DNA of 64,000 nt from Lenzites betulinus. Taxonomy: Eukaryota > Basidiomycota > Agaricomycetes > Polyporales > Polyporaceae. The notes beneath the pieces are model-generated. The model ran no database searches. It saw only the letters and a list, made by a program, of their open reading frames with translations, and was not told where the DNA came from. The DNA is taken from the NCBI GenBank assembly GCA_022264855.1, contig JABYQU010000042.1, positions 124,001 to 188,000 of the forward strand, written 5' to 3'. This document shows positions 26,499-64,000 of this stretch, one piece after another (positions within the stretch are counted from its first letter, which is position 1; each line of letters begins with the position of its first letter). The translations under genes and the position numbers were made by a program.

Positions 26499-27329
26499 GT
26501 CGCTGGTTGGGCGCGGGATTTCTCTTGGACACGACTTGCTGTTACGACGATTTCACGACTTTCATAGGACCTCTAGTGCGACTGCATCGTTCGACGCTGC
26601 TCAGTATCCCGTGCGTACTGCATCTGGGGAGCACATGCGCAAGCGCAGGGCAGATCGCTGTATATTTAGACAGTGGCATAATTTGCACCAGTTACTCACA
26701 TCCGCTTACCGGACGTAAGCGCGAGATCTACCCAAACGGCGATCCCGGGGAGACTTAGCGTCAGTGCCGATGGTCTGGTGAGTGTTCACTGCTGTCGTTG
26801 AGCGGTCCTCAGGGTTGACTGAACGGCGTTTAGATGGCAGCGGTCGTTAGTCTTGATGTTCACCCCTGACGCTAGCCCCGGCTCGCGTTGGAGGGCGATC
26901 CACTCTCACAGATACCGGTATGAACACCTTCGAGGAAGATGCACCAGTGCATACCATATACCCGCTACCCGCTGTCTGTACACGGCGGGCATTAAACCAT
27001 TGCGTATAGGTTAAATGGGTCCAAAAGTCGAGTCAAGAGGTGAACTTTTGACCGACTTATCGGGTCTTGAGTGAGTTGCAAACGACTTTTGTCCAGGACT
27101 CACTTCTAGGTTTTGCTCGGTCGGCAACGGGCCACTGCCTGCCGTGGTATGTTATTCAAGTTACCCAAGCGTACTTCACAGAACCTGATGAGCTGCTATC
27201 ACTCAGCACTACTCATCGTGCACAGGCACCAGCGAGCCGCAGTTGAGCGGTGTAACGCATCGATAATCCCCTAGCCGATCGGGGACACAGGGGCTACGCG
27301 CTAGGAATGCTTGACGCTCCTCCTCAATG
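26499..27329. other. Intergenic, nothing recognised
   Basis: No gene, RNA or repeat recognised between Rab18 and the duplicated block. Confidence 0.4.
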
Positions 27330-27912
27330 CTCATCATGCCGCCGACGCCCATCGCACACGACCTGGAGGCACCCCGCGGGCGAAGCGCGCATAAACACAT
27401 TGTGAGTCTGTGGCGCTTGCTTTAGTCTGATCGCCGAAAGTCAAGCTTTCGAGCTCGAGTCGACTTTCGGGACCATCGTATTCTCATAGTACGCCACGAA
27501 GCGCCGAGCAACACGCAGAGCCTCGGTTGCGAAAGCTCCACCGTAAAGGAATATTGACCTGTTAGGCCGACTGGAGCCGACTACCCGCAAGGTGCGCGCA
27601 TGCCAACATACGCAGTGCTCGCTCACATACCTCCGATATAATAGGACCAGTGCGCGATGATCTATCATCGCCGGGCGCGCGATCTGTGTCCCTTGCTTTT
27701 CATTTATGACCGACTTCCTCGGAGCGTGGCTCGACAAACGGGCATCGACCCGGGTCGGCGCGCGCCGATGAACACGCCAGATCACCGTGTGGAGATCTGC
27801 AATGCATATAGAAGGACTTCAAGGGGGGTATGTCGCTTCTTGGGGCCCCTCACTGTTGACATTCTTTCTTTTCCCTCGCCCCGCGTGCTGTTACGACCCT
27901 TCGCCGCCCACC

Positions 27913-30246
27913 ATGGACCCATCTGCTGCCGCTTTGAGTACAACTGCTGCCGCTGCTCTGCCGCCCGCGGTCGATAATACACTCGGGGCGCTGCTTCTCG
28001 GGACATGCTTCGGGTTTATGTGCGCCTCCTACTCTTTTTATCGAATTGAGATCTGACTAGAGACTTCCTACAGGTTGTATGGTGTGATGCTTTACCAGGC
28101 GTACAGATATTATCAGCTGTACCCTAAAGATCGTTTTATGCTCAAACTACTGGTGAGGGACAAGATCCTCCTTTCACTCGGGCTGGCTCACTTACAGTTA
28201 TTATGGCGATCTAGGTGACGGTGATTGTGTATGCTGTCTGGGGTATATGTTCGATTGGGGATGCTCCGTTTACATGTTATATAGGATCACGGAATCCCTT
28301 CACATGTCAATATGGGCGATAGGCTGGTAAGCTGCACACCGAACATCGTTTGCGAGTCACATGCTCACAGTACTGCGTGCCAGCTACGAATATCTCGTCG
28401 CCAACTACTTTAATCCGGCATATGCCGCCGAAACGCACTGGTCAGTAGCTCCCACTGGTCGCATGTTGATTCACGACATTCCACGGGGCGTTTTGTCTGA
28501 TATTCTGATACCTCTTCAACTCTCAGGTTCATGCAAGTACGTTCAACGTCCTCCGTTATGAAATGGATCTCATTGCTGATACGTCTCTACAAAGACCTTA
28601 GTAGTATTCACGGTAAGCACTACACTTTGCGGTATATCGCGACCTACTCACGTTTCGATTCCACGACTAGGACGCTTCCGTATTGGTCTGCCAACTGTGA
28701 GCGTCGTCCTCATTCACTCTACAATGACAAGTTGCTTACGGTCTGTAGTTTTTACACAGCACGTATATATTATTGTACGTCCATCGCTCGTGGGGCGTGT
28801 TCTGCTGACTGAACATATCTCTCCTGTGCCAGTCGGGCCAGAGTGGCGATGCAGGATTCCCGCTTTCGTTGCTGTAAGTTTTATCGTTGTAGCACACTCG
28901 CAACCCTCGCTCACATCTCCCGTCATCTTAGCTTATCATCCAGTTGTCGTTCGTGGGTCAGTGTGTCCGACGCTGTGTACCTATAATGTGTAGGCTAACT
29001 CCCCCGCCGCGTGCATATAGGATGGACGTTTGGTGCGCACCGCTCGCTATTGCCTATCATACGCTCACATAGCTGATCACCGTCTGCGCTCTAGCCGCTG
29101 TCGCCAAAGTGTCCGTGACATGCTCTCCTGTGACGGAGGCAGCACCGCTAATGCTAATTCCCATCCGATAGCTACCAAGCAAAGTCGGCGGAGGAGTTCT
29201 CCCACTCGACTGTGAGTCCCTCCATCTTTCGCGTGGCACCCCAGAGACCATCGACTGAGGTTTCCCCTTCCCCTGTACGCAGTGGTATGTCTCAGTCTGT
29301 TTCGGCCACGCCGTGGTGTGCGACGTCGTTCTCGCTGGCGCCCTCGTCTACATCCTGCATAACAACCGCACGGGGATGAAGAAGTACGTCGTGGTGCTGC
29401 CCTGGGGTGAAGTAAGGAAGAGCAGCGTGCTGACGCGTATGTGCCGTTCCGCAGCACTGACAACATCTTGGACAAATTAATTGTCTACGCGATCAACACG
29501 GGTGCGTCGTTGCCCCATTCTTTGCCGAAACACACAACGCTAACCATGCAGCTTTTTGTCGCTCCCCTTTGTGTAGGAGTGCTGACGACGTGAGTGCATT
29601 AGATCAGACGTTCGCGCTGCAGGATACTGAGATATCTGCTAGCATCTTTGGTCTACTCGTCTTCGTCTTCGTGAGTGCTTGATGCATCATCTGGTTGCGC
29701 GCCTACTGACGATTCTTGGATGCGCTAGAGTGTTGTATACCCCACGAATTTCATCTACGCGGGAATCAGTGTCGCAGGCGTGAAGCGTGCGTCCCCATCC
29801 GCCTTTCTGTCGCGCTTCCTCGTCCGCTCTGCATGCTGATTCCCTTCGGGCAGTGTACTCAAATTCCGTGCTAGCAATGTACGCCCCTTTTGTCCCCCTT
29901 GTCTTCCGCTCACACAAGGTCGTTGACCACCCCCCTCCACAGGCTGAACTCGCGCAAATCTCTCTCCGACAAGATGATCAACAATGTTCCCGCAGGAGAC
30001 TCGATCTCCCTCACCTCCTACCGCCCCTCCGCCGCCACGTCCCTCCCGCGCCCCAGCGGTATCACCGTGAGCCGCACACAGACCGTCACAGTCGGCGTCA
30101 ACGCGTGGCCCGGCAAGATCAGTCACCACGCTGAGAGCAACTTGGACGTGGAGAAGGGCGCGGGCATCCCGTTTGACAACAGGCACTCGAAGCGTGGCGC
30201 GGAGAAGTACGACGGCGTGGAGGATGAGCTTGGGTTCACACGCTGA
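27913..30246 (+). CDS. DUF6534 seven-helix membrane protein, copy 1, 21 exons
   Basis: A 362-residue protein split into 21 exons, several of them microexons (10, 12, 13, 14, 16 and 18 nt). Exon ends: 27913-28019, 28074-28152, 28215-28228, 28285-28326, 28384-28440, 28527-28536, 28595-28612, 28671-28696, 28749-28774, 28833-28873, 28932-28956, 29021-29032, 29095-29110, 29172-29211, 29283-29383, 29455-29501, 29577-29589, 29643-29670, 29729-29786, 29854-29878, 29943-30246; the sum is exactly 363 codons. Helices begin with GALLLGTCFGFMLYG; the DUF6534 core includes LDKLIVYAINTGVLTTIFG and LYSNSVLAMLNSRKSL. Long cytosolic Ser/Thr-rich tail. The family is abundant in mushrooms, function unknown. Exon 5 must use a CAG acceptor 13 nt later than the first candidate to keep frame. 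Confidence 0.8.
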
Positions 30247-45257: not shown

Positions 45258-48200
45258 TTATTTATCAGTTATTACAAGGTTATATTTCTGCCGGAGAGTA
45301 CGTACGGTCGCAGCTGCTCTCTTTTTCGGTCTGGGCTTTGGGCGTGGCTTCGTGGATGGTGTGGGCGCTGCCTGAAGACCGGGGAGCTCCTCATCATCGA
45401 CCAGACCATCATCTTGGGACTGCGGCCAGAGGTAGGGAGCTGAACCATTCGTACTCTCTATCACGGTAACTTGACCATCGAATATCGGTGGCGTTGATGT
45501 AGGATGTAGAATGTCAAGGTGTAGCACCGCTGATGCTGTATGTTGCGGATCGCTGGTATCTTGGGCCCCTTCGCATGCAGCCAGAGCTTGTTCCGAGTGA
45601 CTGAGCTGTCGTACGAGACGGTAAGGCGACTGAGATGTGCTTGAGCTTCTGAGGAGGTTGTATAGTGCGAGGTCGTCGGAAGGCGGTCGTTCGAGGTAGG
45701 TTCGCACAATTACAAGGTTGAACAAAACAACGCCAATCCCGAAGACTAGAGCGTCCTGGGGGATCTCCAGCGACGAGGGATTCGCGGCGAGGACAATCTG
45801 AAGTTGTGTGAGCGACTGGAGTATAAGTGAACTGTCGCCTGGGAGTATATCCAGCTTGTATGCCGTTGCAAATCTTGTGGCGTTCTCTGGAGTGTGGCCA
45901 CTCTTAGTTGTGTGTATCACAAACTCATCGAAAGCTTCGAGGATGGGATGGGGGCGCTGTCCGGACACTATGGCCTTGATTGAGCTGAAAGCTCTCTTAA
46001 GGGCTTGCGATATTTCTGGGACGTCAAACTCCTCGTTGTCTGCAGCATCTTCTAATAGTCGTTCGGGCCACATGATGGCTCCTATCTGTCAGTAATATAT
46101 CAGTATCATAGCATCGGCAAATCAGCAAAGGAAATGTACAGGCAATGTGTCGGAATGTTCTCGCTGTCTGTAAACCGCTTCGGCGCATTGACGAAGGGTT
46201 TGTTTGAATTTTGGACGTGGGCACTTCGTCCTGCCAGAGTATATATTGCCCTTGTGCCATTCCAATTGAACGCTCTGACTCCTGGGCGGCACGGAGGTCA
46301 TACGGGCAGGGTAATATAGCATTCCTGCGCTATCAGCCACTCCGAAGAGCGCATATTGACCTTGTCTGCAGCAGTTTAGTAGGTAACTATCTATTCGTCG
46401 TAACAGTTATACAATAGACCCACAAGAGTTTGCGTTGATTCACCCTGTCCCTGAGTATGTCTGAAGAGAGGCTGTCGCCCCGGCAGCTTGGGCAAAGCCA
46501 TGCGTGGAGAGGTTGGTCGTAATCCTCCGGGAGCCCATATTTGGCAGATAGAAGAACCTGAATGCAAGGGACGTGCGACCAGCATTGGCACACATCACAA
46601 CTGACCATGTCCCCTTCATCTTCAACATCACCGCAACTCCCTGCGCAGTCTACTGTCTCGGGTAGTAGGGAGGCCGGTGTTGAGGTGTTGGGCTTGCCTG
46701 ACTTGGAGTGTGGCACCGGTGATGCAGTCATCGGAGTACTAGCCACTGGTGTAGTCTGATTATGAGGTGGAGTAGCGGGAGTAGCGATGAGTTGCTGATG
46801 CGAAGGAGAACTTGGCTCAGGTATACTTGCATCCGGTGGATTTATAAATGGTGGTCTGCATCCCGGAGCCAGTGTAAGATAGTGGCGTTGAAACGCAATT
46901 TAGTTTGTATACATACGGCGTGAATCGTAATATTTCCGAGCATACTTCATCAATGCTAGAACTGCTGACCGATAGTGCTCGTTGTATCGTGCCTTGAGTG
47001 TACATTTGCACCCAGTTGAAGCTCTCTGTGAGCAGATTGATTGAGTGGTTGGTTATCTGTTTGCCGTGAATTTATATAAGTTATACGACTGCACTGGTAG
47101 AAGATTAAACGATCATTGCTCACCCGACATGCCTCTGATATCCGTGTGTAGATGTACATCACTACATCGTGTCGGGGAGCGAGGGCTACGTGCCAATCAC
47201 CTATGTTGACGAGACGGCCCTGATTTGCAGCGCAATCGTATGAAAAGGTGCGCTCCCCCAGGATGTATTGAGCCGTGAAATGGCCGGGCTGAAAGAGGAC
47301 ACGTCCGACAAGGCAGTACTCGACGTACTTTCCGCCAAGGGGAGGTTGTGATGTGGATGAGGGAATGCAGAAAGATCGCTCAAAGACAACTGGTGCTTGT
47401 AGCCGAGTAAGGTATGCTGAAGGCGTGTCGGCAAGTGTCTCTGGGATGATATGAAGTAGACGCGGCCAAGTGGTTTGGCACGATGTCACTGCTGAGGTGT
47501 ATAAACAGTTGCGGGATGGGCAGGGAATGTTCGGCAAGAGGTGAAGAGGCTCGCTTCCATGGTATGTGTTTCCTATTGGCCGGCACGGAATAAACCATCT
47601 GAAGTAGTCGCTGATGGTGATGGCAGATCCGGCGTGATCTGCGACTTGGAGTAGTAGAGTGAAATCAGTATACTTTCTCATACAGTATACTGATTTACAA
47701 GTACTTACCATGCGAGCGAGCAATGAGTATGTCCTTGCCACGGAGAGTGTACACGGCAGGCAATGGTATAACCTCCGTAGTGATATGGGAATTGGGACAG
47801 CTTCGCGAGATGAGGTGGTGTAGCGCAAACAGTTTTCTAGTCTCATCGCTGGATGTTGCCTGTAATGATATGTGAGCACAACCGTGAATACTATCCTGAA
47901 CTGAGAAGGATGTGTGGCGGGCGCCCGGCGTACCTCGATGGCCTTCTGAATCCAGGTGTATGCACAGCCAAATGCGTTCTCGTGCTCTATCAGGCCCCAG
48001 GTATTGAATACGGCATGCTTGATGATACGTTGACATAGAGCACGAGAACGCTCCCCTTCGGTTGGGTCGGTGCTGCTCAGGGTCCATTTCAAACGTGCTT
48101 GGAAGTGGAAGAACAGCGAAGACAGGACGGTCTCGATTGGGATGATTGCATGTAGGACGTCCTTGCGAACCTCTGGGGGCCATAGGACGAAAGCCCGATA

Positions 48201-48740
48201 CCAGCCCTCGAGTGGATGGTCGGTATAGCAAGAGTTCTGAGCTAGAGTGTATGACTGAATCTGGAATTCCGGTTGCGGAAGACCATGAGGAAACGATCCG
48301 TCCACAGTCAAGAAGTTGCTGACTGTTAACATGATCGTTGGGGCTATCGTCGTGTCAGGATGCGTAGAGGCTGCCGGCAGCACCAGTGGTTGAGGCTCTG
48401 CGCCATCAGGCTGAGATAGGTCCATCGTACGGCTTGCAGTGGCATTGCTGCTCGGAGATTTGGAGTGACCAAGGGCCTCCAAGGTGTCTGGTGCACGACC
48501 ATCATTGGGATGATAAGTCATACGCTGGCGTCGAGGGGGACGATCACCGGGTCCAGAGGGCCATAGCACATGACCATCTACAGCACAAATCAGTCCAAAT
48601 CCAATAGAATTTGAGTCGGCATAGGACATGCTTACCACGGATGGCCTGAACGTGACGTTCCATCTCCTGCACATGAAGGAAAAGTGCACGCACTCCTGGA
48701 ATAAGATCGTGGCCCTTTCCTGAGGCGTGGTGAAGCAGGG
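45258..48740 (-). CDS. PHD-finger protein, 5'-truncated by a retrotransposon
   Basis: Multi-exon gene reading from 48740 down to the stop at 45258. Resolved exons: 48740-48636, 48577-47934, then exons carrying ATSSDETRKLFALHHL and DHAGSAITISDYFRWFIP, ITNHSINLLTESFNWVQ, and a Pro/Thr/Ser linker. Next comes a zinc finger with CSGD-type spacing (CAGSCGDVEDEGDMVSCDVC, then CWSHVPC and WLCPSC), a PHD-like treble clef. C-terminal exons carry ADSAGMLYYPARM and a long helical region beginning MWPERLLEDAADNEEFDV, ending in a Lys/Arg-rich tail. I do not recognise the overall family; a chromatin-related role is only inferred from the finger. The coding frame is open right up to 48740, where the LTR begins, so the N-terminus is lost or lies beyond the element. 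Confidence 0.6.
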
Positions 48741-49062
48741 TGTAAGGAGCGCGTATCCTGCGCTCCTACAGGATCCTTTAGTTGTGCGAAACGCACAACT
48801 AAAATATACGGAATCGGACCATACGTACACGCGCGCATATTAGCGCGCGGATAGCCGCATGTATGTAATGCCACCGCGTACGGTGTCCCGAGTATTCGGA
48901 ACTCGGGCGCCTGGTGGAGGGTAAGTCCTTACTACCCTCCACCATCCCTACGAGTACGCCGAGCCCAAATACGAGCCCGGACCAGAGTACCCAAGGGATA
49001 GGAGCCCAGTAAGGCACCTACCCCGTCATTCTTACACTTTTTTACTCTCCGTGATACTTACA
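48741..49062 (+). repeat. Candidate 5' LTR
   Basis: Begins TGTAAGG and ends CTTACA (an alternative end is 49036), giving 6-bp inverted TGTAAG/CTTACA termini. It contains strong hairpins: a 12-bp stem at 48777-48788/48792-48803 and an 11-bp stem at 48913-48923/48933-48943. The partner LTR is outside the window, so the call rests on the termini and position. No convincing primer-binding site was found after it. Confidence 0.5.
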
Positions 49063-49141
49063 CGCCCATATTTGGGGCTCGACGTTACCACGTCATCAAT
49101 CATCAACAACATCTGCCATAAACAACTCGAAATCCTTCCAA

Positions 49142-52100
49142 ATGGAAGAATCCGCGCCACTTGTGGTTGCCACCATAATAATATAATCCCCCACCAGACT
49201 GGTGCACACCTCGTGTATTTTGTGATCACCACTTGTAATTGTTTAACGCTACCCCAGCCATTGTATTATAAGTGTCAAGTATTATATTATAAGGACCACC
49301 TATTGTACAATCCCTGGGCAGTTTGTTTTTGATACTGTGGGCGCGTATTTGGGATTGTACAATCCCTGGGCAGTTTGTTTTATATTCTGGCAGCTGTGCC
49401 TGGTTTGTGTTCATCCATTATACAATCAGTGCCTGCTTGTAGGTCCCTGTTTACCGCTTAATGGGCGCTTTTTTGGCTTCCTAATAGGGTAGGCATACCA
49501 AATGACCGCATTTGGGCGCTTTTTTGGCTTCCAAATGGGGCAGGGGCCTACCACCACCCCCTGGGGGCTCCCTTTTGGCCCCCCTGGGCGCATTATTGCC
49601 CTACTTTGTGCCCTATGTATATATGGTGATCATGATACATATTATGGTGTTCTGTGGGGGCTAAAAACCGACCAAAAGCAGTCAAAAATGCGAACCCAGG
49701 GCAGGGGTCAGCAGGTCCTGGTAGGTGCATGCAGCATATAAATGGTTCCTCTGGGCCCATTATGTTGATCAATATATCATTTGAAAGCTATAGCACAGGG
49801 CTTTCTGGGACAGCTATTTGCATAGCCCCCGACGCTGTACTGATGAAGATATGGCCTTTCGCATTTTCGCAAAAAGCAGCCGTTTTGTTTGCTCAATAGC
49901 TCCTGATCCAGGGCACATATAAATCCACCCTATACACCGTTAGATTTGTATTTAGCAGACCTTTAGAACAGGCCTACTCTCAGGATATTCCATCCACATG
50001 TATTCTGTCCCTCCTCCTGCCTCCCTGCCAATAGATCGCCCTCCAGGGCCCTCAGTTCCTAATGGATTCCCTTGAAAGCCTTTGTAGTGTGTACTGGCAA
50101 TATATCCATACATATTTCCAGCTTGGCATGATTTAGAATGGCCTACCCCTTCCGTGCCCTCTTGCTGTACATTTGGTGCACTTCCAGCTTGTTTGCTCCA
50201 TAATATTATATCCTGTACAGATATGGCCCTGCTCTCTTTTGCATGTTGTCTGTGTATACTATAGCTACCAATAAATGTGCTCAAAAGTGTTATCCGACAT
50301 CCGGATCTCTTATAGGCTCCTTATCAGTAGCCCACAGTGTAGCCCAATCTATCGCGTTTTGGGGGCATATTATTTAGATCAGACTGCACATCTGTACTGG
50401 CATAGTGTTCAGGATTACATTGCACCAAACATCATGAGATTCTCCACCAAAATCTCATGATGTTTGGTGCAATGTAATCCTGAACACTATGCCAGTACAG
50501 ATGTGCAGTCTGATCTAAATAATATGCCCCCAAAACGCGATAGATTGGGCTACACTGTGGGCTACTGATAAGGAGCCTATAAGAGATCCGGATGTCGGAT
50601 AACACTTTTGAGCACATTTATTGGTAGCTATAGTATACACAGACAACATGCAAAAGAGAGCAGGGCCATATCTGTACAGGATATAATATTATGGAGCAAA
50701 CAAGCTGGAAGTGCACCAAATGTACAGCAAGAGGGCACGGAAGGGGTAGGCCATTCTAAATCATGCCAAGCTGGAAATATGTATGGATATATTGCCAGTA
50801 CACACTACAAAGGCTTTCAAGGGAATCCATTAGGAACTGAGGGCCCTGGAGGGCGATCTATTGGCAGGGAGGCAGGAGGAGGGACAGAATACATGTGGAT
50901 GGAATATCCTGAGAGTAGGCCTGTTCTAAAGGTCTGCTAAATACAAATCTAACGGTGTATAGGGTGGATTTATATGTGCCCTGGATCAGGAGCTATTGAG
51001 CAAACAAAACGGCTGCTTTTTGCGAAAATGCGAAAGGCCATATCTTCATCAGTACAGCGTCGGGGGCTATGCAAATAGCTGTCCCAGAAAGCCCTGTGCT
51101 ATAGCTTTCAAATGATATATTGATCAACATAATGGGCCCAGAGGAACCATTTATATGCTGCATGCACCTACCAGGACCTGCTGACCCCTGCCCTGGGTTC
51201 GCATTTTTGACTGCTTTTGGTCGGTTTTTAGCCCCCACAGAACACCATAATATGTATCATGATCACCATATATACATAGGGCACAAAGTAGGGCAATAAT
51301 GCGCCCAGGGGGGCCAAAAGGGAGCCCCCAGGGGGTGGTGGTAGGCCCCTGCCCCATTTGGAAGCCAAAAAAGCGCCCAAATGCGGTCATTTGGTATGCC
51401 TACCCTATTAGGAAGCCAAAAAAGCGCCCATTAAGCGGTAAACAGGGACCTACAAGCAGGCACTGATTGTATAATGGATGAACACAAACCAGGCACAGCT
51501 GCCAGAATATAAAACAAACTGCCCAGGGATTGTACAATCCCAAATACGCGCCCACAGTATCAAAAACAAACTGCCCAGGGATTGTACAATAGGTGGTCCT
51601 TATAATATAATACTTGACACTTATAATACAATGGCTGGGGTAGCGTTAAACAATTACAAGTGGTGATCACAAAATACACGAGGTGTGCACCAGTCTGGTG
51701 GGGGATTATATTATTATGGTGGCAACCACAAGTGTCCGCGCCAGGTTCCGGAAGCAAGCGGCCGAGTAGGCCTAATTCCCCCCCGCGAGCTTCTTCCCTC
51801 CCGCCACGCACTGATATCGGTGCTGGCGTGCCACGTCGCAACACCCCCCCCGTGCCAGTGTACTCACACCCGCATGCGGGCGCGCGACGGACTCGGAACG
51901 TAACTTCGCGTTCCGAGAATGTAAACGTGCCGGTCGAGACGACCGTACGCCCCGCAGCGAACGTTTCTCGTGCGCCGTCAAGAGCTCACTCGCATACGAG
52001 TGTTATGCCCCCTCCAGCGACTCGGACAGGCCCGCCGTCTATGCGCGCGGATTCCCCGTCGTTGGAATACGTCAGCCAACCACGTAGTATCGTGGTTGGC

Positions 52101-54761
52101 TCAGTACGAGGCCCGGAATCGCCGCGGCCAGCGGCGAGTCAATTGCCGAGGTCAGCAAGTAGGAGTTCCCAGCTGTCGCTAGACTCGAAAGGTCTAGCGA
52201 AGGTCAGCAAACGGTGGCAAGGCGTTCGCGACCGACATCGTCGCGACTCCCTTGCCCCATCAACCTCGCTCGAGCTGCTCAGCGCACTGCAGCGGTCTGC
52301 AACCCGGTTCCGCGAATTACGGAACCAGATATTGGACGCAGAAGACGAGCTGGCTGGCCACATTACAGGCCTGACCATATTACATGGATCCGACGGGCAT
52401 GGACCGAATAGGTCCGAAATGGACAGCGATGTCGAGCTGCCAGCAGGCGAAGCTGCTGGCGACGAACACGAGGTCGAAGACGAGCTACTCGGATACGAGT
52501 CAGCCCCAGATCTCGAGGCGGAAATGGACGAACAGCGTCGCTGGGAAGCCAGCCGGCGCGAACGACTGAAGAAGGCTGGACTCAGTGAATCCGACATAGA
52601 ACGTAGACGTTCGCAGCCGGCGTTTGAGTCGACACCGAGACCTATCGGTCAAGGCGGAGCATCGAATGCGATGCCTCGCAGGAACGTAGTGTTCGACCCG
52701 GAGGAACCGCGTTACGGTTCCATATCCAGGACGAACGCCTGGCCCGACGCGGCCGCGCCTCTTACCAGAGGCCTGAATGCCGCGGGAGTTACGGGCCCTA
52801 CGCTTCCTCCTGCAATGCCAGGACTACGACCTCGTCGGTCGATGGCCCCTTCAGCCATGGGCGGGATGCACTACGCCCGCCCCGATAATGAGCGCGATGC
52901 CAACACGGCACATGATGTACCCGAGTTGGTGTATACGGGTCCCAGTCCTATCGCGCGAGATAGTTTTGGCGTCCAGCGATTGCTGGACATGATTGAGGAG
53001 ATGGTAAGCGAGGAGGCTACCTCTCCTCCCCCAGCCTATCTCAAGATGTCCAAGTTGCCGCCGCCGAAATCGTACGACGGCAAAGACAATCTGGACGAGT
53101 TCGAGCTGTGGCTCCGCGGGCTACTGGAGTATTTCCATACTCTCCGCATCACCGGAGACAGCATGGATGCAGACAGGTTACGTCTGCTCAGCTCGAGTCT
53201 CACGGACGAGGCGGCGCTGTGGTTTTACAACACGGTGCAGTCCACTTCTCGCGAGAAGAGAAACTGGCTCTTCTCCGAGGCCGTAATCGGGCTGTTCCGC
53301 CGGTTTATCCATCGGGATAATTACCTCTACGCGGCCCAGCAATTTGAACGTCTGAAATACGACGCTAGCAAGGGAGGAGTAGCCGCTCTGTATGAACGGC
53401 TACTATACATATCCGACAGGATGTGGGAGCGCCCTTCACGATACCAGATGAGGACCAAGTTCCTTGACGCATTGCCCGAGAGTTTCGAGCATGTGATAGC
53501 GGTAGTTAACGGTTTATCCGTTAAATACAATACCTTGACCGACCTGTACCATGCTGCTCTGGATATCGAGCAGAATACGCGCGCTATGCAGATGCGCAGG
53601 CGTGCCCGTGAAGGCCATAATACGGTCGCTTCAACTACGGTGACGTGCCCTACGAAGGACCTCTCCACTCGGAGGAAGCAAACTGCTCCTCCGAGTAAAC
53701 CGACGCAACCTACGTCGGTCTCACGGCCTGCGCACTACGCGGCTAAGCCTGCCGAACAAGGACGGCCTCGCACCGGAGGTCCGTCTGGGGACAAGACACG
53801 TAACGTGCCTCACCCGAACAATCGTCCCAACGGAAAGCAGGCCACCACCAAAGCAGCGCAGACTTGCTATTCGTGTGGACAGATCGGACATTTCGCGTCC
53901 GATCCAGTCTGTCCGAATGCGGGCAAATGCGACCACTCCGGTCCTCGCATGTTTGCTCAACGAGTATTGGACGATACGTCCGACCATGAACAGGCCGCGC
54001 ACGACGAGCAAGTCGGCGTGGCTGATGACCATGTACCCGAACCAGAGGAGGATGAAGCTCTGGTAGAGGACGAAACCGACCTGCAAGTCGTAGGGGATTA
54101 CCCTCAGTCAGAATATGGCTGGGGAGGATCTCAGTATGAATCAGAGCACGAAGAAGTGTTCGACACCAATGATCACTACGATCAATTGGAGTTCGCAGGA
54201 ATGCGCATAGAACCTTTGGCCGATGAAGTATCGGATACGATACACATCCACAGCATGGCAGTAGGGCAAGACCGTGCTGCGAGACATGCGTGGATGTATG
54301 ACGCCAAAGTACGGCGCATCGAGGATCCGCAGGCACAACCAGCACGTACGCTGGATACGCAACGCACGTTATGTGCCGAGCTCCCGATCAACGGAGTCAA
54401 GGGCTTAGTGCTCTTTGACTCCGGATGCACCACGGACTCTATCACTCCGGAGTTTGCATATTTGTGCAAGGCAAGTCGTATCGACTTGAAGGAGCCAATG
54501 GGCCTACAGTTGGGCACCAAAGGCAGCCGCACGAAGATAAACTTCGGGGCTCAAGCGTCAATTGCGCTCGGAAATATATGTGAAACGCATTATTTCGACG
54601 TCGTGGATATTGACAAATACGATGCCATATTAGGCACCGTATTCTGTCGTCAATATGGCGTTGTTCTCGACTTCGCGAAGAACCGAGTAGTGATGAATGG
54701 GAAGGAGATCCCGTTATTCATTGAAGGAGGCAAATACGCCAGCCAGCGTGCGGCGTATTAG
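49142..54761 (+). CDS. Gag-protease ORF, split by palindromic element 1
   Basis: The start is ATGGAAGAA at 49142; codon 6 is interrupted at 49157 and coding resumes at 51742, giving about 1010 residues. Domains: a disordered Pro/Ser/Arg-rich N-terminus; a retrotransposon gag core at about residues 460-615 (FELWLRGLLEYFHTLRITG, then WFYNTVQS and LFRRFIHRDNYLYAAQQF); a zinc knuckle CYSCGQIGHFASDPVC near 714 (C-x2-C-x4-H-x5-C, one longer than canonical); and an aspartic protease near 895 with LVLFDSGCTTDSIT. It ends at TAG 54759-54761, in the same frame as pol. With the insert in place the natural start codon is cut off from the rest. Confidence 0.88.
49158..51734. mobile_element. Palindromic foldback element 1 (2577 bp)
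   Basis: Two arms of about 1284 bp that appear almost identical in reverse complement, around a 9-nt centre at 50442-50450. Ends are CACTTGTGG and CCACAAGTG. Flanked by a 7-bp duplication TCCGCGC (49151-49157 and 51735-51741). Short mirrored ORFs exist but no transposase motif. A motif of about 25 bp beginning TGTACAATCCCTGGGC occurs twice in the outer part of each arm. Inserted into gag codon 6. Confidence 0.85.
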
Positions 54762-57700
54762 CACAGCGTAGTGGAATCCACCAAGGTGGAGCCTCCCCAA
54801 ACCCGCTACGCGATGACTAGTATGTCACCGGAAGGGGGAGGGAACGACGGCGAAACCGTCGTAACTCCGGTACGACATCAAGGTCGGGCAGCGAATGCCG
54901 CTGTTCCCGACATACGAGAACGTAGTGTACCTACCGTACATTCACAATCGAGACCGAAATTGGTCAACAACTATGGCAAAGACCCATTCGGCATCCACGA
55001 GATGCTCGACCAGATAGCGAAAGAGCAGCTGGAGGATGAAATAATCCGACGGACACACGTCGGATTTGTCATAGATGAATCTGAAGAGGAGCTGAATAGG
55101 CTCCGAGAACGGTGGTATAAGGAGACGGAGGACATAATGCGTCCTGCGCCTGAGACTCTACCACCGTATAGGGAGATCAATCATCGTATTCCGCTGATTG
55201 ATGAGAAAAAACTATACAAGTATCACCTACCGCGATGCGCGGAGGCGATCAAGGATGAGCTTCTTACGAAGATCAACCGGTATGTAAAGGCCGGCTGGTG
55301 GAGACCTGCTACGGTCACACAAGCAGCTCCGCTACTATGCGTAGCGAAGAAAAATGGCAAACTTCGAACTGTCATTGACGCAAGACAGCGCAATGACAAT
55401 ACTGTACATGATCTTACGCCATTTCCGGATCAAGATCAGATCCGGATGGATGTGGCACGAGCGAAGTACCGCTCGAAGATCGACTTATCCGACGCGTACG
55501 AGCAAATACGCATCGTAGCGGAGGATATCTGGAAAACCGCATTTTCCACTCCTTTCGGAACCTTCGTGAGCGAAGTAATGCAGCAGGGCGACACAAATGC
55601 ACCCTCTACATTCCAAAGGCTAATGACCACGATATTTCGTGAATTCATAGGCCGATTCGTTCACGTATACCTCGATGACATATTCGTCTTCTCGGATACT
55701 ATCGAAGACCACGAGAAACACCTGAAATTGGTGTTTAACGAGCTTCGAAAGGCACAACTATTCCTTAGCAAGTCGAAATGCGACTTGTATTCTAAGGATC
55801 TGGATTGTTTAGGTCATCGCATAGATGACCGCGGCTTGCACGCCGATACAGACAAGATGAGCCGTATCCGTAACTGGAGAACCCCGCAGTCTTACAATGA
55901 AGTCCAGCGGTTTCTGGGACTAGTGAATTACCTAGCCCATTTCATGCCAGATATATCGGCATACACATCTCCGCTTTCGGAGATGGTACACAACGATAGA
56001 CCTTTCGTATGGCGAGCCTTGCACGAGAAATGCTTCGAGTCCATTAAGACTCTAGCGTGCAAGGTCCCCACACTGAGACCAATAGACCCGCGCCGCAGTG
56101 AGCCGATATGGCTCATATGCGACGCCTCACTGTTTGGAATCGGGGCCTTATACGGCCAAGGCGAGGACTGGCAAACTTGCCGTCCCGCTGGGTTTCTATC
56201 GAAGAAGTTCACCAGTGCTCAGCGTGCATATCACACGTACGAGCAAGAGACCCTTGCAATAATGGAAGGACTCCTGAAATGGGAGGATAAACTTCTCGGC
56301 CGCAAGTTACGTATCGTAACTGACCATAAGGCCCTAGAATTTATGAAAGGAGTCAAGAATCCGAATCGTCGCCAGATTCGTTGGTACGAATACCTAGCCA
56401 GATTTGACTACGATATTACCTACGTACCTGGGCGACTCAACAAAGTCGCGGACTGTCTATCTCGATACTACGAGATGGACTCCTTGCATGACACGACGCC
56501 GGAATACGACGTCGTGAACGCTGACGCGCGATTAGATCCTGAGGGAGACGATCTACCTCAGAGTCGTCTGCTCGAGATACGAGCTGGACGAGTCATTCGG
56601 AAACCTGCTCGTTATCGTGACTCCGATGACGAGGCGCCAGTAGCACGCCCGAAGAACAAAGTCGTTCTCCCGGCAAAAGCGAAGCCGACAGCTACCACAC
56701 TGCCGGAGCCAGTGGAGGAGCGAGTCATAGAGAGCGCACGGTATGCCACACACGCTCCAGCGGCTGAGGTTACATCTGAACCAACGTCGCCTGACGACCC
56801 TACGCTAGCGATGTCGCTAGCGTCCGGCCCCTCACTGCGCACCCACTTCGAAAACGAAGATGGGTTCATGAAAGCCGTCCGTAACGGATACGTTACGGAC
56901 AAGACGTTTGGCAAAATTATGGCTAAACCATCTCAGTTTAGCGCATTCGCCACTCGCGATGGGTTGATTTTCTCCAAGAACCGCGAGGGCGAGGCTGTGT
57001 TATGCCTACCCCGGGTTCTATTGAACAAACGATCACTACACGAGATCGTGATTGATCGCGCGCACAGTACGTTGGGACATCTCGGTCCGCAACGCACATC
57101 TGAGTATCTCAGACGTTGGTTTTGGTGGCCGACTCTACGCAAAGACGTAGATAAATTTTGTATAACTTGCGGTACATGTCATACCGCAAAGTCGTCCACT
57201 CAACTACCTATGGGGCTACTACATAGCTTACCCCTGGCCCTGGCCCCATGGGCCTCGATCTCCATGGACTTTGTCGGTCCATTTCCATTGTCACACGGCT
57301 ACGACTACGTATGGGTAGTCGTATGCCGCATGACGTCTATGGTACACTTAATACCTGTACGAACGACCGACACGGCCGCGGAACTATCTCTCGTATATCT
57401 GCGAGAGGTAGTACGACTCCACGGGTTGCCTGAATCTATCGTATCTGATAGAGACAGCAAGTTCACGTCGAAGTTCTGGCGTGAGCTTCATAGACTCATG
57501 GGCGCGAAGCTGCTCATGTCCACTTCTTTCCACCCGCAAACGGATGGACTGAGTGAGCGAACTATTCGTTCAATTACTCAGATTCTCCGTGCTATAGTAT
57601 CGCCCAATCAACTCGATTGGTACGAGAAACTACCCTTGGCAGAATTCACATTGAATTCTGCCGCCAGCTCTACTACTGGGTTTGCCCCGTTCGAATTGAA

Positions 57701-60700
57701 CTATGGGTATTTACCTCGGTCGATGAGTGGAATCAGAACGGAAACTCCGTTCGCGGGAGTACGCGAGTTCGCACAGCGAGCTCGTGCTAATCTTGAGATA
57801 GCGCACGATGCCATAATCGACGCTCGCGTGTCTCAAACCTACCATGCGAATAAGCATAGGCAGGAGGAACCTGAGTTCCAGATTGGAGACTTAGTCTATC
57901 TCTCGACTAAGAACCTAACCGTGCCCAAAGGTCGAGCACGCAAGCTCGTGCCTAAGTACATCGGGCCATACAAGATTTTGGAGTGCATACCTCGCACTTC
58001 CAACTATGTATTGGACCTACCCTCGGAATTACGAGAGCGGCGAATACATCCCAAATTCCATGTCTCCCTACTTAGGAGACATGAAGCCAACGACGATGCG
58101 GTATTCCCGCATCGCGATGCCCAAGCCTTCTACGACTTCGGGCTCAGCGACGACGCTGAATGGTTGGTCGACGAGATAGTCGGCCATGAGTGGCAAGGCG
58201 CCAAATGTCGGTTTCACGTACGGTGGACCCACACCTGTGGCTTCCACTGTTGTATTACAATAGCCCACCAAGGTGGTACCAGCAGTGTGTATTCTGTGGC
58301 CACCATAGTTTATTGTTAATCTGGCCCCCAGGTGTTGTACAAACCCATTAATGGTTGTTAATCTGTACAGTGTTGTTATTGATTGTAAAATAGAGCGCAT
58401 TTATACAATGGACCCTAGCATTGTCAAATGATGTTAATCATTGTTAAAAGCTGCTTTAGATGTTGTTAATGGTTGTAAAATAAGCCCTGAGGTTGTTTAA
58501 CATTGTTAAAAGCTGCTTGGGATGTTGTTAATGATTGTAAAATCAGTGCCTGCTTGTAGGTCCCTGTTTACCGCTTAATGGGCGCTTTTTTGGCTTCCTA
58601 ATAGGGTAGGTATACCAAATGACCGCATTTGGGCGCTTTTCTGGCTTCCAAATGGGGCAGTGGCCTACCACCACCCCCTGGGGGCTCCCTTTTGGCCCCC
58701 CTGGGCGCATTATTGCCCTATTTTGTGCCCTATGTATATGTGGTGATCATGATACATATCAGGGTATTCTGTGGGGGCCAAAAACCGACCAAAAGCAGTC
58801 AAAAAAGCGAACCCAGGGCAGGGGTCAGCAGGTCCTGGTAGGTGCATGCAGCATATAATTGGTTCCTCTGGGCCCATTACATTGATCAATATATCGTTTG
58901 AAAGCTATAGCTCAGGGCTTTCTGGGACAGCTATTTGCATAGCCCACGGTGCTGTATTGATGAAGATATGGCCTTTCGCATTTTCGCAAAAAGCAGCTGT
59001 TTTGTTTCCCCAATATCTCCTGATCCAGGGCACATATAAACTCACCCTATACATCGTTAGATTTGTATTTAGCAGACCTTTAAAACGGGCCTACTCGCAG
59101 GATATTCCATCCACATGTATTCTGCCCCTCCTCCTGCCTCCCTGCCAGTAGATCGCCCTCCAGGGCCCTCGGTCCCTCATATATTCCCTTGAAAACTTGT
59201 GCAGTGTGTACTGGCAATATATCCATACATATTTCCAGCTTTGCATGATTTAAAATGGCCTACCCCTTCCGTGCCCCCTTGCTGTACATTTGGTGCACTT
59301 CCAGCTTGTTTGCTCCATAATATGATATCCTGTACAGATATGGCCCTGCTCTCTTTTGCATGCTGTTTGTATATGCTATAGCTACCCATTAATGCACTAA
59401 AAAGTGTTATCGGACATCTGGATCTCTTATAGGCTTCTTATCAGTAGCCCACAGAGTAGCCCAATCTGTCATGTTTTGGGGGCATATTATATAGATCAGA
59501 CAGCACAGCTGTACTGGCATAGTGTTCAGGATTGCATTGCACTAAACATCATAAGATTTGGTGGAGAAGTGACGGAGGTATGGAGGGAACACCTCAAAAC
59601 AGCCCTCTGATGCAGTTGGTGAAGAATACATGAATGCACTGCTGTAAGCTGTGCTTGAGCATGTAGACCACCATTTGGGATATTCCGCCCATACCTCCGT
59701 CACTTCTCCACCAAATCTTATGATGTTTAGTGCAATGCAATCCTGAACACTATGCCAGTACAGCTGTGCTGTCTGATCTATATAATATGCCCCCAAAACA
59801 TGACAGATTGGGCTACTCTGTGGGCTACTGATAAGAAGCCTATAAGAGATCCAGATGTCTGATAACACTTTTTAGTGCATTAATGGGTAGCTATAGCATA
59901 TACAAACAGCATGCAAAAGAGAGCAGGGCCATATCTGTACAGGATATCATATTATGGAGCAAACAAGCTGGAAGTGCACCAAATGTACAGCAAGGGGGCA
60001 CGGAAGGGGTAGGCCATTTTAAATCATGCAAAGCTGGAAATATGTATGGATATATTGCCAGTACACACTGCACAAGTTTTCAAGGGAATATATGAGGGAC
60101 CGAGGGCCCTGGAGGGCGATCTACTGGCAGGGAGGCAGGAGGAGGGGCAGAATACATGTGGATGGAATATCCTGCGAGTAGGCCCGTTTTAAAGGTCTGC
60201 TAAATACAAATCTAACGATGTATAGGGTGAGTTTATATGTGCCCTGGATCAGGAGATATTGGGGAAACAAAACAGCTGCTTTTTGCGAAAATGCGAAAGG
60301 CCATATCTTCATCAATACAGCACCGTGGGCTATGCAAATAGCTGTCCCAGAAAGCCCTGAGCTATAGCTTTCAAACGATATATTGATCAATGTAATGGGC
60401 CCAGAGGAACCAATTATATGCTGCATGCACCTACCAGGACCTGCTGACCCCTGCCCTGGGTTCGCTTTTTTGACTGCTTTTGGTCGGTTTTTGGCCCCCA
60501 CAGAACACCCTAGTATGTATCATGATCACCACATATACATAAGGCACAAAGTAGGGCAATAATGCGCCCAGGGGGGCCAAAAGGGAGCCCCCAGGGGGTG
60601 GTGGTAGGCCACTGCCCCATTTGGAAGCCAGAAAAGCGCCCAAATGCGGTCATTTGGTATACCTACCCTATTAGGAAGCCAAAAAAGCGCCCATTAAGCG

Positions 60701-61168
60701 GTAAACAGGGACCTACAAGCAGGCACTGATTTTACAATCATTAACAACATCCCAAGCAGCTTTTAACAATGTTAAACAACCTCAGAGCTCATTTTACAAC
60801 CATTAACAACATCTAAAGCAGCTTTTAACAATGATTAACATCATTTGACAATGCTAGGGTCCATTGTATAAATGTGCTCTATTTTACAATCAATAACAAC
60901 ACTGTACAGATTAACAACCATTAATGGGTTTGTACAACACCTGGGGGCCAGATTAACAATAAACTATGGTGGCCACAGAATACACACTGCTGGTACCACC
61001 TTGGTGGGCTATTGTAATACAACAGTGGAAGCCACAGGTGGGACCCAGGGCGACCATACTTGGGAGCCGTATGAGAGCTGTAAGGATCTCGCAGCGTTGG
61101 ACGAGTATTGCACGCTCATGGGAGTCAGCTCATGGCGAGCCTTACCCCGGAAACCAGCCGCACACTAA
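54762..61168 (+). CDS. Pol ORF (RT, RNase H, integrase, chromodomain), split by palindromic element 2
   Basis: Coding runs 54762-58231 and resumes at 61048, stop at 61166-61168. Reverse transcriptase: VIDARQRND, QGDTNAPSTFQRLM and the catalytic YLDDIFVFSD near residue 300. RNase H begins ICDASLFGIGALYG near 445. Integrase has the HHCC zinc region (HSTLGHLG ... CITCGTCH) and a DDE core with SMDFVGPFP, SDRDSKFTSKFW and FHPQTDGLSERTIR. The C-terminus is a chromodomain: CRFHVRWTQGDHTWEPYESC when the insert is ignored. The frame closes exactly across the excised insert. No ATG is placed at the start; the frame is continuous with gag through one TAG. Confidence 0.92.
58232..61040. mobile_element. 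Palindromic foldback element 2 (2809 bp)
   Basis: Arms 58232-59583 and 59689-61040 (1352 bp each) mirror each other around a 105-bp centre; coordinates are exactly symmetric. Ends CACCTGTGG and CCACAGGTG; 7-bp duplication GGACCCA at 58225-58231 and 61041-61047. The inner kilobase is very similar to element 1 but the outer 250-330 bp differ and carry repeated TTGTTAATG.TTGTAAAA words. Inserted inside the chromodomain of pol. Confidence 0.85.
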
Positions 61169-61483
61169 TACGTGTGCGGTGGGGAGTAGCTACGCCGATA
61201 CGGCGAGTGTAGCCAGTGCGGCGTCAAAGGAGAAAAGGACTTGTGCGTCCGGCGTTGAAGGCGCGAGCACAGCCACATGCTAGCAAGCGCTCGCACGCGG
61301 TCACATGTGCTACGCGCGACGCGTCGCGTAATTACAGCTCAGATTCGAGCTCAGCCAGCGCTTAGCGTGGCTCCGCGACCCTGCGACTGGCGAATTGCCA
61401 GCTCGCGCTCGCCTAACTTCACACTCGTCTCTCTTGCTTTCACTACGACTCTCTCACTCGCCCTCAACACTCGCACCACCGCC
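61169..61483 (+). promoter_or_regulatory. Spacer between pol and ORF3
   Basis: Non-coding as read, with short hairpins just after the pol stop. The last 60 bases before ORF3 are strongly pyrimidine-rich (CTCTCTTGCTTTCAC-type), like a fungal 5' leader, so ORF3 may have its own promoter. Confidence 0.4.
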
Positions 61484-63850
61484 ATGAACCCCGACCAATC
61501 CCAGCCGCCTCACGCGCCCCTCAACGCACCCCCGAGCGCCACTACCGAAATGGTAGTGGATCGCCCAGCACCCCCCTCTACCGCCATGCCACCAAACGTG
61601 GCCTTCCCGGATCCTGCCGCCCCAGCCGTGCATCAGCAAGTAGCTGGGTATCCTGCGCCGTATCCGGCCCAGTACCAGTACGGCGGTGCCCCAACGCAGA
61701 CACCGCCTACGAATCAATATCCGCAGCCGGGATACGGCTACGCGTACCCGCCCGCGTACCCTCAAGCACATGGGGCGTCGGTCTCAGCGTTTGCTCCGCC
61801 CCAAAATCAGGTCGCTCCCATGGGCGTAATGCCAGGGATGCCGCCCATCATGCCACTGAGCATGAACCTGGCCTGGGGACCGGTAGCAGAGCATCCGCTC
61901 CTCGTCGCGCATACGACGGGCTGCGTGATCTGCGCCGAGTTCATCCGCCATCTTCGGGGCGCGCAGTCGGAGCCATCGCTGCGCGAAGCTCAAATGAGCG
62001 TGCAAGCTCAGCTTCAAGCCCGGTTCTGGCAGTACTTCGAGGAGCATAGTCGCTCCAAGGAGGGAGGGGACGCCGCGGAGAACGAGCGGCGTATAGCCGA
62101 ACTGCAAGAGCAGTTGAAGGAGGCACGGCAGCTCGCAGATGAGCGTCGTGAGACGATGGAGCGGTACCGTCGCGAGCGCAACGACGAGCGCGAGCGGTAC
62201 GATCTGCAAGACGAGAAGGATCGACTCCAGCAGCAGCTGGAGGATATGAAGAAACAACAGGAGTCTCGAGCAGAAACTGCTCGTTACCAACCTTACAGCC
62301 GTCCCAACGAGGACAGGACGGTGCGGCGCGGGGATAGGCGCGAGGACATGTCGTCCCGCTTTCCCCCGCCAATATCAGCAGGGGACGTTCGTGGATTTGA
62401 CATGTTCCGACAAGGATCGTCTACCACGACTCGGCCGACGCAGACGTCGCCCGAGACCCAAAGAATCGAGCCGCCGCGGGAAGAGCCGGCCCCGCACCCC
62501 ATGGTCGACTACGACTTCTCGTCGGAAGACGAGGCTACGTTCGACGCCAAACGGGCGCGGCGTATTTCGAGTCGGCAAGTGATGCGGAACGCGCGTCGAG
62601 GAGTACCAGCTCCTCCACGCCCGGGCACGATGACGTGGACAGGCACGACTGCCGCCTCTCATCAGTCGCTCATCCCCAACTGGCCCCACGACGAGTTAGC
62701 CGCACCGGCGAACTCGGACCCCAAGCTCACCAACCATTGGTACGACTTCGTGCCAATGACTCAAGAGGAGGCCCGGCAAATCTTGGATGCCTCGCACACT
62801 GACATGGGTCAGGCGCGGCATCGCATACAACATCTGCTGGCGCAGGTCAACGCCAACCCCGCACTGACCAGCGTGCGGGGATTACAAGTCTTGGTGAGCA
62901 GCTGGCGGAACCCCGACCGAGCTGGTCCCTCGGGTGGCCCATCCAGTCGGACAGGTCCCACCGTAGACCAGCCCCACCCGGCTGCATATACGCCGCCGGG
63001 GTTAATCCCTACAAGCACGGCGCATCTGCCGATGCCCACCACCCGCAACGACCGCCCGATTGCAGGACGGCCGTATCGCTCCAAGCAGCAGCCGCACGTG
63101 AAGCTCGCGCAGCCACGGCTGGACTCCACCGCGAAGGAGCTTCGCGAGTGGATGAAGAACTACCCGTCGTCTCGTCCGTCGTGGATGACGGTCGCCCCCG
63201 ACGGTCGGCCGCAACTGGTCCACGTCGAGTTCCACCAGATGGGTCGCCGCGCTTTGACGCGCCGTGTAACCCCGTCTGAACGCGGACGGTGGCTCTCGCT
63301 GACGAACGTATTGTTCTCAGTGCCGGGCCTGTACCGTCACATCATTCTGACGGGACAGTACCCTGTCAGCCCCGAGAGCACCACGCAGGCATATCCCGGC
63401 AGCTTCGCAGAGGACGCGCTGTCCCTGTTTCACGTCGCACTCTGGTACGCCCGACTAGGCGTCACCATCGAGTGGGCAGACGAGCACCGCGACGCGGCCG
63501 CACGATCCCGCGCCTCTCGCGAAGGAATCACTCCCGGGGAACCTATCACGGCTCTCCCCGGCATACACTCTGTATCGGAGGTGGTCAATGTACCCCCTCC
63601 CCAATCCCTAAACATAGCGGCGACACCCACGTCGACCGCTACCAACGAGGCTCCGGCCGCTAACCCCGCTCCTCCCCCTCCAGCTCACGCGTCGAACGAC
63701 AACATGGAGGTCGAGGAGGGCGAGGCTGCGCCCACCACCACGGCCCCGGTCACCGAAATGGGTGACGCAGGGGCTCGTCAAGAGACTCAAGGAGAGCCGG
63801 GAGGCGATGCTCCCCCTCCTTACGACGATGCTACGTCCATGGCGTCGTGA
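61484..63850 (+). CDS. ORF3 of the retrotransposon, unknown 788-residue protein
   Basis: Starts MNPDQSQPPHAP at 61484, chosen because of the pyrimidine-rich leader just before; the frame is open upstream to 61277. Layout: residues 1-130 are low complexity, rich in Pro, Gln and Tyr (QYQYGGAP, PGYGYAYPPAYPQ); CVICAEFIRHL near 145; a long charged coiled coil at about 195-265 (AELQEQLKEARQLADE...); a Pro/Arg linker; a compact region at about 405-690 (NHWYDFVPMTQEEARQIL, GLQVLVSSWRN, VEFHQMGRRALTRRV, LFHVALWYARLGVTIEW); and an acidic tail ending PPPYDDATSMAS. No signal peptide or membrane helix, so not an envelope. No family recognised. It carries the same short hairpins as gag and pol, which ties it to the element. 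Confidence 0.75.
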   Translation: MNPDQSQPPHAPLNAPPSATTEMVVDRPAPPSTAMPPNVAFPDPAAPAVHQQVAGYPAPYPAQYQYGGAPTQTPPTNQYPQPGYGYAYPPAYPQAHGASVSAFAPPQNQVAPMGVMPGMPPIMPLSMNLAWGPVAEHPLLVAHTTGCVICAEFIRHLRGAQSEPSLREAQMSVQAQLQARFWQYFEEHSRSKEGGDAAENERRIAELQEQLKEARQLADERRETMERYRRERNDERERYDLQDEKDRLQQQLEDMKKQQESRAETARYQPYSRPNEDRTVRRGDRREDMSSRFPPPISAGDVRGFDMFRQGSSTTTRPTQTSPETQRIEPPREEPAPHPMVDYDFSSEDEATFDAKRARRISSRQVMRNARRGVPAPPRPGTMTWTGTTAASHQSLIPNWPHDELAAPANSDPKLTNHWYDFVPMTQEEARQILDASHTDMGQARHRIQHLLAQVNANPALTSVRGLQVLVSSWRNPDRAGPSGGPSSRTGPTVDQPHPAAYTPPGLIPTSTAHLPMPTTRNDRPIAGRPYRSKQQPHVKLAQPRLDSTAKELREWMKNYPSSRPSWMTVAPDGRPQLVHVEFHQMGRRALTRRVTPSERGRWLSLTNVLFSVPGLYRHIILTGQYPVSPESTTQAYPGSFAEDALSLFHVALWYARLGVTIEWADEHRDAAARSRASREGITPGEPITALPGIHSVSEVVNVPPPQSLNIAATPTSTATNEAPAANPAPPPPAHASNDNMEVEEGEAAPTTTAPVTEMGDAGARQETQGEPGGDAPPPYDDATSMAS

Positions 63851-64000
63851 ACCTATGTGGTTCACCGCCCATGATACTATCACCGCGCAGGTGCCTGCCC
63901 CACCTGCGTCGACTACTATTGGCTAATCAACAATCATAACCCCACCGAAATTGGTGGACGAGTATATTATCGGGCATGCCGCCTCTTACCGTCAGCCTCG
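63851..64000 (+). other. Non-coding tail of the element in view
   Basis: Contains hairpins CGCAGGTG/CACCTGCG (63886-63893 with 63901-63908) and CCACC/GGTGG near 63941-63956. The 3' LTR should lie beyond the window. Confidence 0.4.

Follow-up and report, generated by a model that had tools for sequence, protein, structure and literature searches.

The window analysed here, a stretch of 64,000 nucleotides (nt) of Lenzites betulinus (C46:124001-188000, within a 37.4-Mb genome of 108 contigs), carries a long terminal repeat (LTR) retrotransposon whose LTR, gag and pol are crowded with short perfect hairpins. The element begins at position 48741 and runs to a 3′ LTR at C46:188194-188490, just past the window end. 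Both LTRs measure 296 base pairs (bp), have TG...CA ends and are identical, and a CAGGG 5-bp target duplication lies on either side; the insertion is therefore young. On the plus strand, the 5′ LTR (48741..49036, with CAGGG directly upstream) is followed by a probable gag start (49142..49157), where we infer the ATG and where the first of two giant palindromes (see below) cuts in after five codons and one base. Next come gag (51738..54761), which encodes a zinc knuckle and an aspartyl protease, ends in TAG and shares the frame of pol; pol itself (54771..58231), with reverse transcriptase (RT), RNase H, integrase (H2C2, rve) and a Tf2-1-like SH3 domain; and open reading frame (ORF) 3 (61277..63850), of 857 amino acids and fast evolving. 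Pfam places RVT_1 at 192-351, RNase H at 443-545, H2C2 at 754-808 and rve at 829-922 of pol, the last with a match of 31.2 bits, slightly below the 32.6 cut-off. Given the order RT-RNase H-integrase in pol and the zinc knuckle and protease upstream in gag, the element is, as judged from its sequence, a young Ty3/gypsy LTR retrotransposon. The 'Transposon Ty3-I Gag-Pol polyprotein' of Trametes pubescens (P0005), from a Polyporales Ty3/gypsy element (Metaviridae), has the same domain order, and its Pol matches at 81% identity across 96% of the query; this comparison is by protein only, and the relatives of our element within its own genome lack long stems. An in-frame TAG (54759-54761) divides gag from pol in all eight copies read there, the window copy included, and it is possible that stop-codon read-through yields Gag-Pol. 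ORF3 has no match in Pfam; four homologues were found, two of them from L. betulinus, one with 99% identity over 78% and one just 40% identical, and ORF3 seems to evolve faster than pol. An Rfam search of 48700-64000 gave no match, and scans of viral contigs for relatives confirmed none.

Unless another cut-off is named, a hairpin is counted here as a perfect stem of 7 bp or more with a loop of 3-10 nt. By this measure gag holds 17 hairpins against a mean of 1.64 in 1000 codon-preserving shuffles (maximum 8), and pol holds 19 against 1.77 (maximum 9), so that no shuffle reached either count. The LTR and leader (48741-49150) have five where 200 Markov shuffles give 0.16. ORF3 is weakly enriched, its six hairpins (1.95 expected) being attained by 9 of 1000 codon-preserving shuffles. 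The host DNA of the window does not have the pattern: positions 1-46900 contain 31 hairpins against about 20 in three Markov shuffles, and eight long host ORFs, chosen mechanically and scored with loops of 3-8 nt, contain one stem of 7 bp or more against 2.6 expected and 47 of 5 bp or more against 45.9. A preliminary description of this DNA had already reported that the host genes lack the hairpins and that these start at the LTR edge, and we agree on both counts, the first hairpin beginning 4 bases within the LTR; the comparison with codon-preserving shuffles and host genes that it named as decisive leaves the excess in gag and pol standing. All 14 of the arm pairs it listed are exact reverse complements, and two of the stems are longer than it gave, those at 48912-48944 and 55424-55446 being really 12 and 8 bp long. 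Its spacing of 30-60 bases is true of stems of 5 bp or more, which occur once per 52 nt of gag and pol, and not of perfect stems of 7 bp or more (one per 180 nt). Likewise, the hairpins that it placed throughout the element are found in the LTR, gag and pol, and weakly in ORF3, but are few in the palindromes: 5.4 kb of the interval 48741-64000 consist of these two later insertions, which it missed and which contain only four such short hairpins. Some 1 kb before the element, at 47662-47696, lies a further perfect hairpin with a 13-bp stem and a 9-nt loop.

The excess in gag and pol depends on loop size. Stems of 7 bp or more with loops of 3-10 nt number 35 against 3.9 expected; the excess is weaker for loops of 11-30 nt (18 against 5.5), absent for loops of 31-60 nt (10 against 9.6) and not clear for loops of 0-2 nt (2 against 1.25). 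The closing pair is G-C in 34 of the 41 stems of the LTR, gag and pol, compared with a fraction of 0.57 among chance hairpins, while the other stem positions are near background composition and the loops are A/T-rich. Such loop sizes, together with closure by G-C, suggest that genuine single-strand folding is involved. Five hairpins lie in the LTR: hairpin 1 (48745..48767; 8-bp stem, 7-nt loop), hairpin 2 (48777..48803; 12-bp stem, 3-nt loop), hairpin 3 (48830..48849; a 7-bp stem of alternating CG, which decays in old LTRs), hairpin 4 (48887..48907; 7-bp stem) and hairpin 5 (48912..48944; 12-bp stem, one pair of which is mismatched in most older LTRs). Examples in coding sequence are the 11-bp stems at 52074..52101 in gag and 57638..57662 in pol, the latter with a 3-nt loop.

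Pol has 59 matches in its own genome, and loci are given for 30 of them: 14 in the family of the window element (family A), nine in family B and seven in family C. Pol relatives at 38-47% identity and matches without a locus were left outside the analysis; aligned pieces shorter than 200 nt were dropped before counting, as were blocks below 50-60 nt in copy comparisons. Each of the 14 family A pol loci, which lie on several contigs and are 95.5-100% alike in pol DNA, bears hairpins (6-19 each), and the outlier of the family, L041, has 18 in 2874 nt. The pol loci of family B (72-75% protein identity) have 0-4 each and those of family C (57-63%) 0-3, against shuffle means of 0.35-1.65 that are only approximate for minus-strand loci. 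When the longest open frames on either strand were compared for a subset of loci, using stems of 5 bp or more and loops of 3-8 nt, the excess fell from 2.8-fold in family A (the gag and pol of the window and a pol from another locus) through 2.0-2.2 in B and 1.6 in C to 1.2 in five further gypsy loci, host ORFs standing at 1.0; for stems of 7 bp or more in family A it was 11.9-fold. The richness of LTR, gag and pol in perfect hairpins is thus a trait of one lineage, family A, and the comparison of copies and related families proposed in the preliminary description, made within one genome, finds hairpins common to the copies of the family and weak in its sisters. Family B has homologues of two of the LTR hairpins, both less perfect: a shorter one for hairpin 4 and an imperfect stem for hairpin 5. 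Some individual copies elsewhere also attract attention. L001 (C18:25539-29021), of another gypsy family, has seven perfect hairpins against 1.4 expected and possibly represents a second, weaker hairpin-rich family. The family C copies L063 (C55) and L066 have 17 and 11 stems of 6 bp or more, against 4.7 and 4.4 expected, other C copies being closer to chance.

The trait is not confined to one strand. In gag and pol, stems of 8 or more pairs that include one or two G.U pairs number 13 against 3.4 expected, and those that include one or two A.C pairs number 18 against 5.8; across families A, B and C and other gypsy sets, G.U showed no consistent preference over A.C. Single mismatches common to the copies read comprise six G.U and six A.C, and the broken pairs of the LTR comprise 18 A.C and 14 G.U cells. 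In kcal/mol per 120 nt, the mean gain in folding energy over codon shuffles on the two strands is 8.3 and 7.2 for gag and 9.2 and 10.1 for pol (z of -17 and -21 for the plus strand and -12 and -13 for the minus strand, from 12 shuffles each), and in families B and C it is 2.1-3.8, again on both strands. Since G.U and A.C are about equally enriched and the energy gain is alike on both strands, the trait belongs to the DNA sequence or to both strands.

The stems cost the protein little. Stem codons are 0.812 identical to P0005, the nearest relative, and the remaining codons 0.814; with five other database relatives, stem identity was somewhat lower in three and significantly so in none. Towards family B, stem codons are 0.648 identical against 0.734 for the rest in one copy (B1) and 0.688 against 0.730 in another (B2). 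In columns where at least 80% of 120 relatives agree, family A differs from them at 2 of the 41 that lie in stems and at 16 of the other 404. Among the 22 single mismatches inside long stems that most or all copies have, 17 allow no synonymous repair (the chance of repair at random being 0.39), and many stems are therefore about as perfect as the code allows. Derived changes fall at third codon positions in 27 of 62 cases in stems and 322 of 622 outside, with no enrichment in stems.

Differences between the copies bear upon how the stems persist. Our main test took the 252 changes that are absent from L041, polarised by copy majority, with P obtained by simulation; they caused 10 hairpin losses against 19.2 expected (P 0.011). 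The 146 non-CpG changes among them broke one hairpin where 8.6 breaks were expected (P 0.0015), whereas the 106 CpG changes broke nine, close to the 10.7 expected. Even the sole non-CpG loss, at 48922, is hardly a loss, because it reinstates the base of most old LTRs. Losses were 9 against 15.1 for singleton changes (P 0.049) and 1 against 3.8 for shared changes (P 0.11). The 122 changes polarised by L041 showed no depletion of losses overall (7 against 8.75), and the 69 non-CpG changes in this set caused none where 4.35 were expected (P 0.0075). Silent inserted copies usually undergo CpG decay, and the contrast between CpG and non-CpG changes would therefore place maintenance in the replicating phase. 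These results suggest that stems were kept while the element replicated, non-CpG changes rarely breaking them. Early estimates of maintenance ran too high: their stems were those of the window copy or of the majority, and the outlier L041 itself has no known polarity; random placement of each copy's differences, over 11 copies, which gave 12 losses against about 39, is one such estimate and is too strong. Simple site counts are weaker and hinge on how stems are defined: the ratio of variable non-CpG sites in stems to those outside is 0.31 with window-defined stems (p 0.0003), 0.76 with stems of any copy (p 0.29) and 0.60 with stems defined by L041 (p 0.30). Every one of the eight older LTRs fetched, the most divergent at 87% identity, still has LTR hairpin 2 with 10-13 bp in its stem; two of the pairs are altered on both sides, and for one of them an A.C intermediate is observed. 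Double-sided changes affect 3 of 46 LTR pairs, and 6 of 500 shuffles match the covariation score; stems in the LTR show no clear reduction in variability, with changes in 24 of their 92 columns and in 47 of the 167 others.

Based upon these observations, the explanation that fits best, and that we put forward tentatively, is hairpin-templated copying on single strands during reverse transcription. The nascent strand would snap back where a short seed offers G-C closure and a loop of 3 nt or more, use the opposite arm as template over a few bases, and then rejoin the original template (intrastrand template switching). Such copying would extend chance seeds to perfect stems and re-perfect stems that had newly mutated, while purifying selection on Gag and Pol would discard the versions that alter protein, so that mismatches would stay mainly where the code bars repair. 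This would account for the symmetry of the strands, the perfection of the stems, their seed-like closing pair and an asymmetry between the arms: A outnumbers T in the left arms of 25 coding stems and is outnumbered in those of 8 (p 0.001), as expected of directional copying. The pairs of LTR hairpin 2 that changed on both sides and the long-stem mismatches that have no synonymous repair also speak for it. More speculatively still, replication may continuously rewrite the lineage into perfect hairpins, a snap-back mutational drive that would consume synonymous freedom and spare what the protein forbids. The repair of near-palindromes by RT that the preliminary description had offered as one explanation therefore draws support from strand symmetry, loop sizes and maintenance, but several results weigh against it and against our version of it. 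None of 68 recent change clusters fits inverted copying (8 nt or more, within 60 nt). One-sided arm change relative to family B, which could be scored in 18 of 19 and 35 of 36 stems, is not significant (p 0.12 for stems of 7 bp or more and 0.33 for 6 bp or more), and arm-by-arm identity to family B shows no consistent difference. Hairpin gains among the polarised changes are not in excess (1 against 2.75), and the number of double-sided LTR pairs is matched by 175 of 500 shuffles. The arm asymmetry is weaker at stem cut-offs of 6 bp (p 0.065) and 8 bp (p 0.055) and absent in the LTR; 15 of 36 perfect stems are synonymously extendable yet unextended; and hairpins are fewer in ORF3 than in gag and pol, although one enzyme copies all three. 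Finally, the sister families have a similar RT and yet lack long stems, for which copying offers no explanation.

Several of these difficulties vanish under a second possibility, which we regard as doubtful but serious: selection keeps perfect short foldbacks in the DNA or in a single-stranded intermediate (the cDNA, or both strands), ordinary mutation supplying the variants and those that break stems replicating worse. Hairpin gains at chance level and the missing template-switch footprints are what such selection would predict, stems that stop short although they could be extended would be good enough, and the lower density in ORF3 might perhaps be explained as well. The near absence of non-CpG stem breaks beside unhindered CpG decay, together with a protein unchanged in stem codons towards its nearest relative, also fits. 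Against it, stem positions are not shared with family B, in two copies of which 60 and 72 of 152 stem pairs are kept, about what base identity alone would give (an estimate); the derived changes in stems lack the third-position enrichment; and the arm asymmetry is left unexplained. To our knowledge, moreover, there is no function that requires dozens of DNA hairpins across coding sequence.

Selection for pervasive structure in the plus-strand genomic RNA, as in viruses, for packaging or escape from RNA silencing, was the other proposal of the preliminary description and is disfavoured by our results; we consider it unlikely. Plus-strand folding energies far under those of codon shuffles, A/T-rich loops and G-C closing pairs are all in its favour, but the minus strand gains a similar amount of energy and neither the coding stems of the three families nor the broken pairs of the LTR favour G.U over A.C. 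Genome-scale ordered RNA structure (GORS) of RNA viruses, which is pervasive, exceeds codon shuffles and has unconserved positions, offers a parallel. Our element resembles it in folding energy below that of codon-preserving shuffles and in pervasive structure at positions that are not conserved, and differs in that its stems are perfect Watson-Crick helices of 7-12 bp, strand-symmetric and with no special tolerance of G.U. That the hairpins are a by-product of composition, codon usage or assembly is refuted and has next to no probability: family A coding sequence is indeed slightly rich in CpG and in A, but the codon shuffles never match the counts in gag or pol, all 14 pol loci on their several contigs show the hairpins, and sister families of like GC show them weakly. 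Insertion of mobile hairpins, of which the double-hairpin elements of organelles are an example, would suit the perfect stems and small loops, but the stem sequences differ from each other with few exceptions and none of the 19 pol hairpins required a gap in alignment with two family B copies, which refutes this idea and leaves it virtually no chance.

The two giant palindromes in the window copy are not the cause of the short hairpins, because copies without them carry the same hairpins. Palindrome 1 (49158..51734; 2577 bp) has arms of 1284 nt that are 100% complementary, a 9-nt spacer and a flanking 7-bp duplication, TCCGCGC; it breaks gag shortly after its probable start. Palindrome 2 (58232..61040) has arms of 1367 nt that are 99% complementary, a 75-nt spacer and the 7-bp target duplication GGACCCA; it takes the place of the C-terminal end of pol, whose open frame has 1185 amino acids compared with 1196 in an uninterrupted copy on C64. 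As read from coordinates, ten other loci have no insertion where palindrome 1 lies and nine have none where palindrome 2 lies, and arm matches of palindrome 1 are present on 18 further contigs. Long terminal inverted repeats, target duplications and multiple copies are the marks of foldback DNA transposons, and both palindromes are, on these features, separate transposons of this kind inserted in the window copy. Their arms are 99-100% complementary within a copy, yet the similarity between palindromes 1 and 2 is only about 93%, a difference suggestive of arm homogenisation inside each copy. Between two family A LTR matches, C83:14653-30472 likewise holds two such palindromes (15380-18102 and 25391-28113), and these foldbacks may have a preference for family A or for its chromatin.

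Template switching is able to create and maintain perfect hairpins, according to Monttinen and Loytynoja 2022 (PMC8794818), and it operates in coding DNA, according to PMC8604942. The hairpins treated in the former are like ours in their perfect stems, double-sided pair changes and short loops; they concern RNA genes and DNA replication, whereas ours lie in retroelement coding sequence, where we found no multi-base footprint. Hairpins beside fungal LTRs have a precedent in the Conserved Hairpin Site of GalEa Copia elements, which, in PMC5445492, is one site per element compared with dozens through the coding region here. Stem-loops in or beside the LTR also occur among the retroelement hairpins with priming or R-region functions in PMC3601003, whose consulted passages confine them to LTR ends and contain nothing about coding regions. 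Our literature search, from which most subscription papers were out of reach, found no description of coding-wide retroelement hairpins, nor, in the literature searched, of a strand-symmetric constraint on DNA foldbacks in coding retroelements. How perfect hairpins originate and are kept up is debated, with compensatory selection set against copying from the other arm. Family A provides about 50 natural hairpins, multi-copy and mostly coding, with controls in sister families that lack long stems and in the contrast with CpG decay. If copying is true, a reverse transcriptase would bias codon choice genome-wide without selection; if selection is true, coding retroelements would bear a strand-symmetric constraint on DNA foldbacks.

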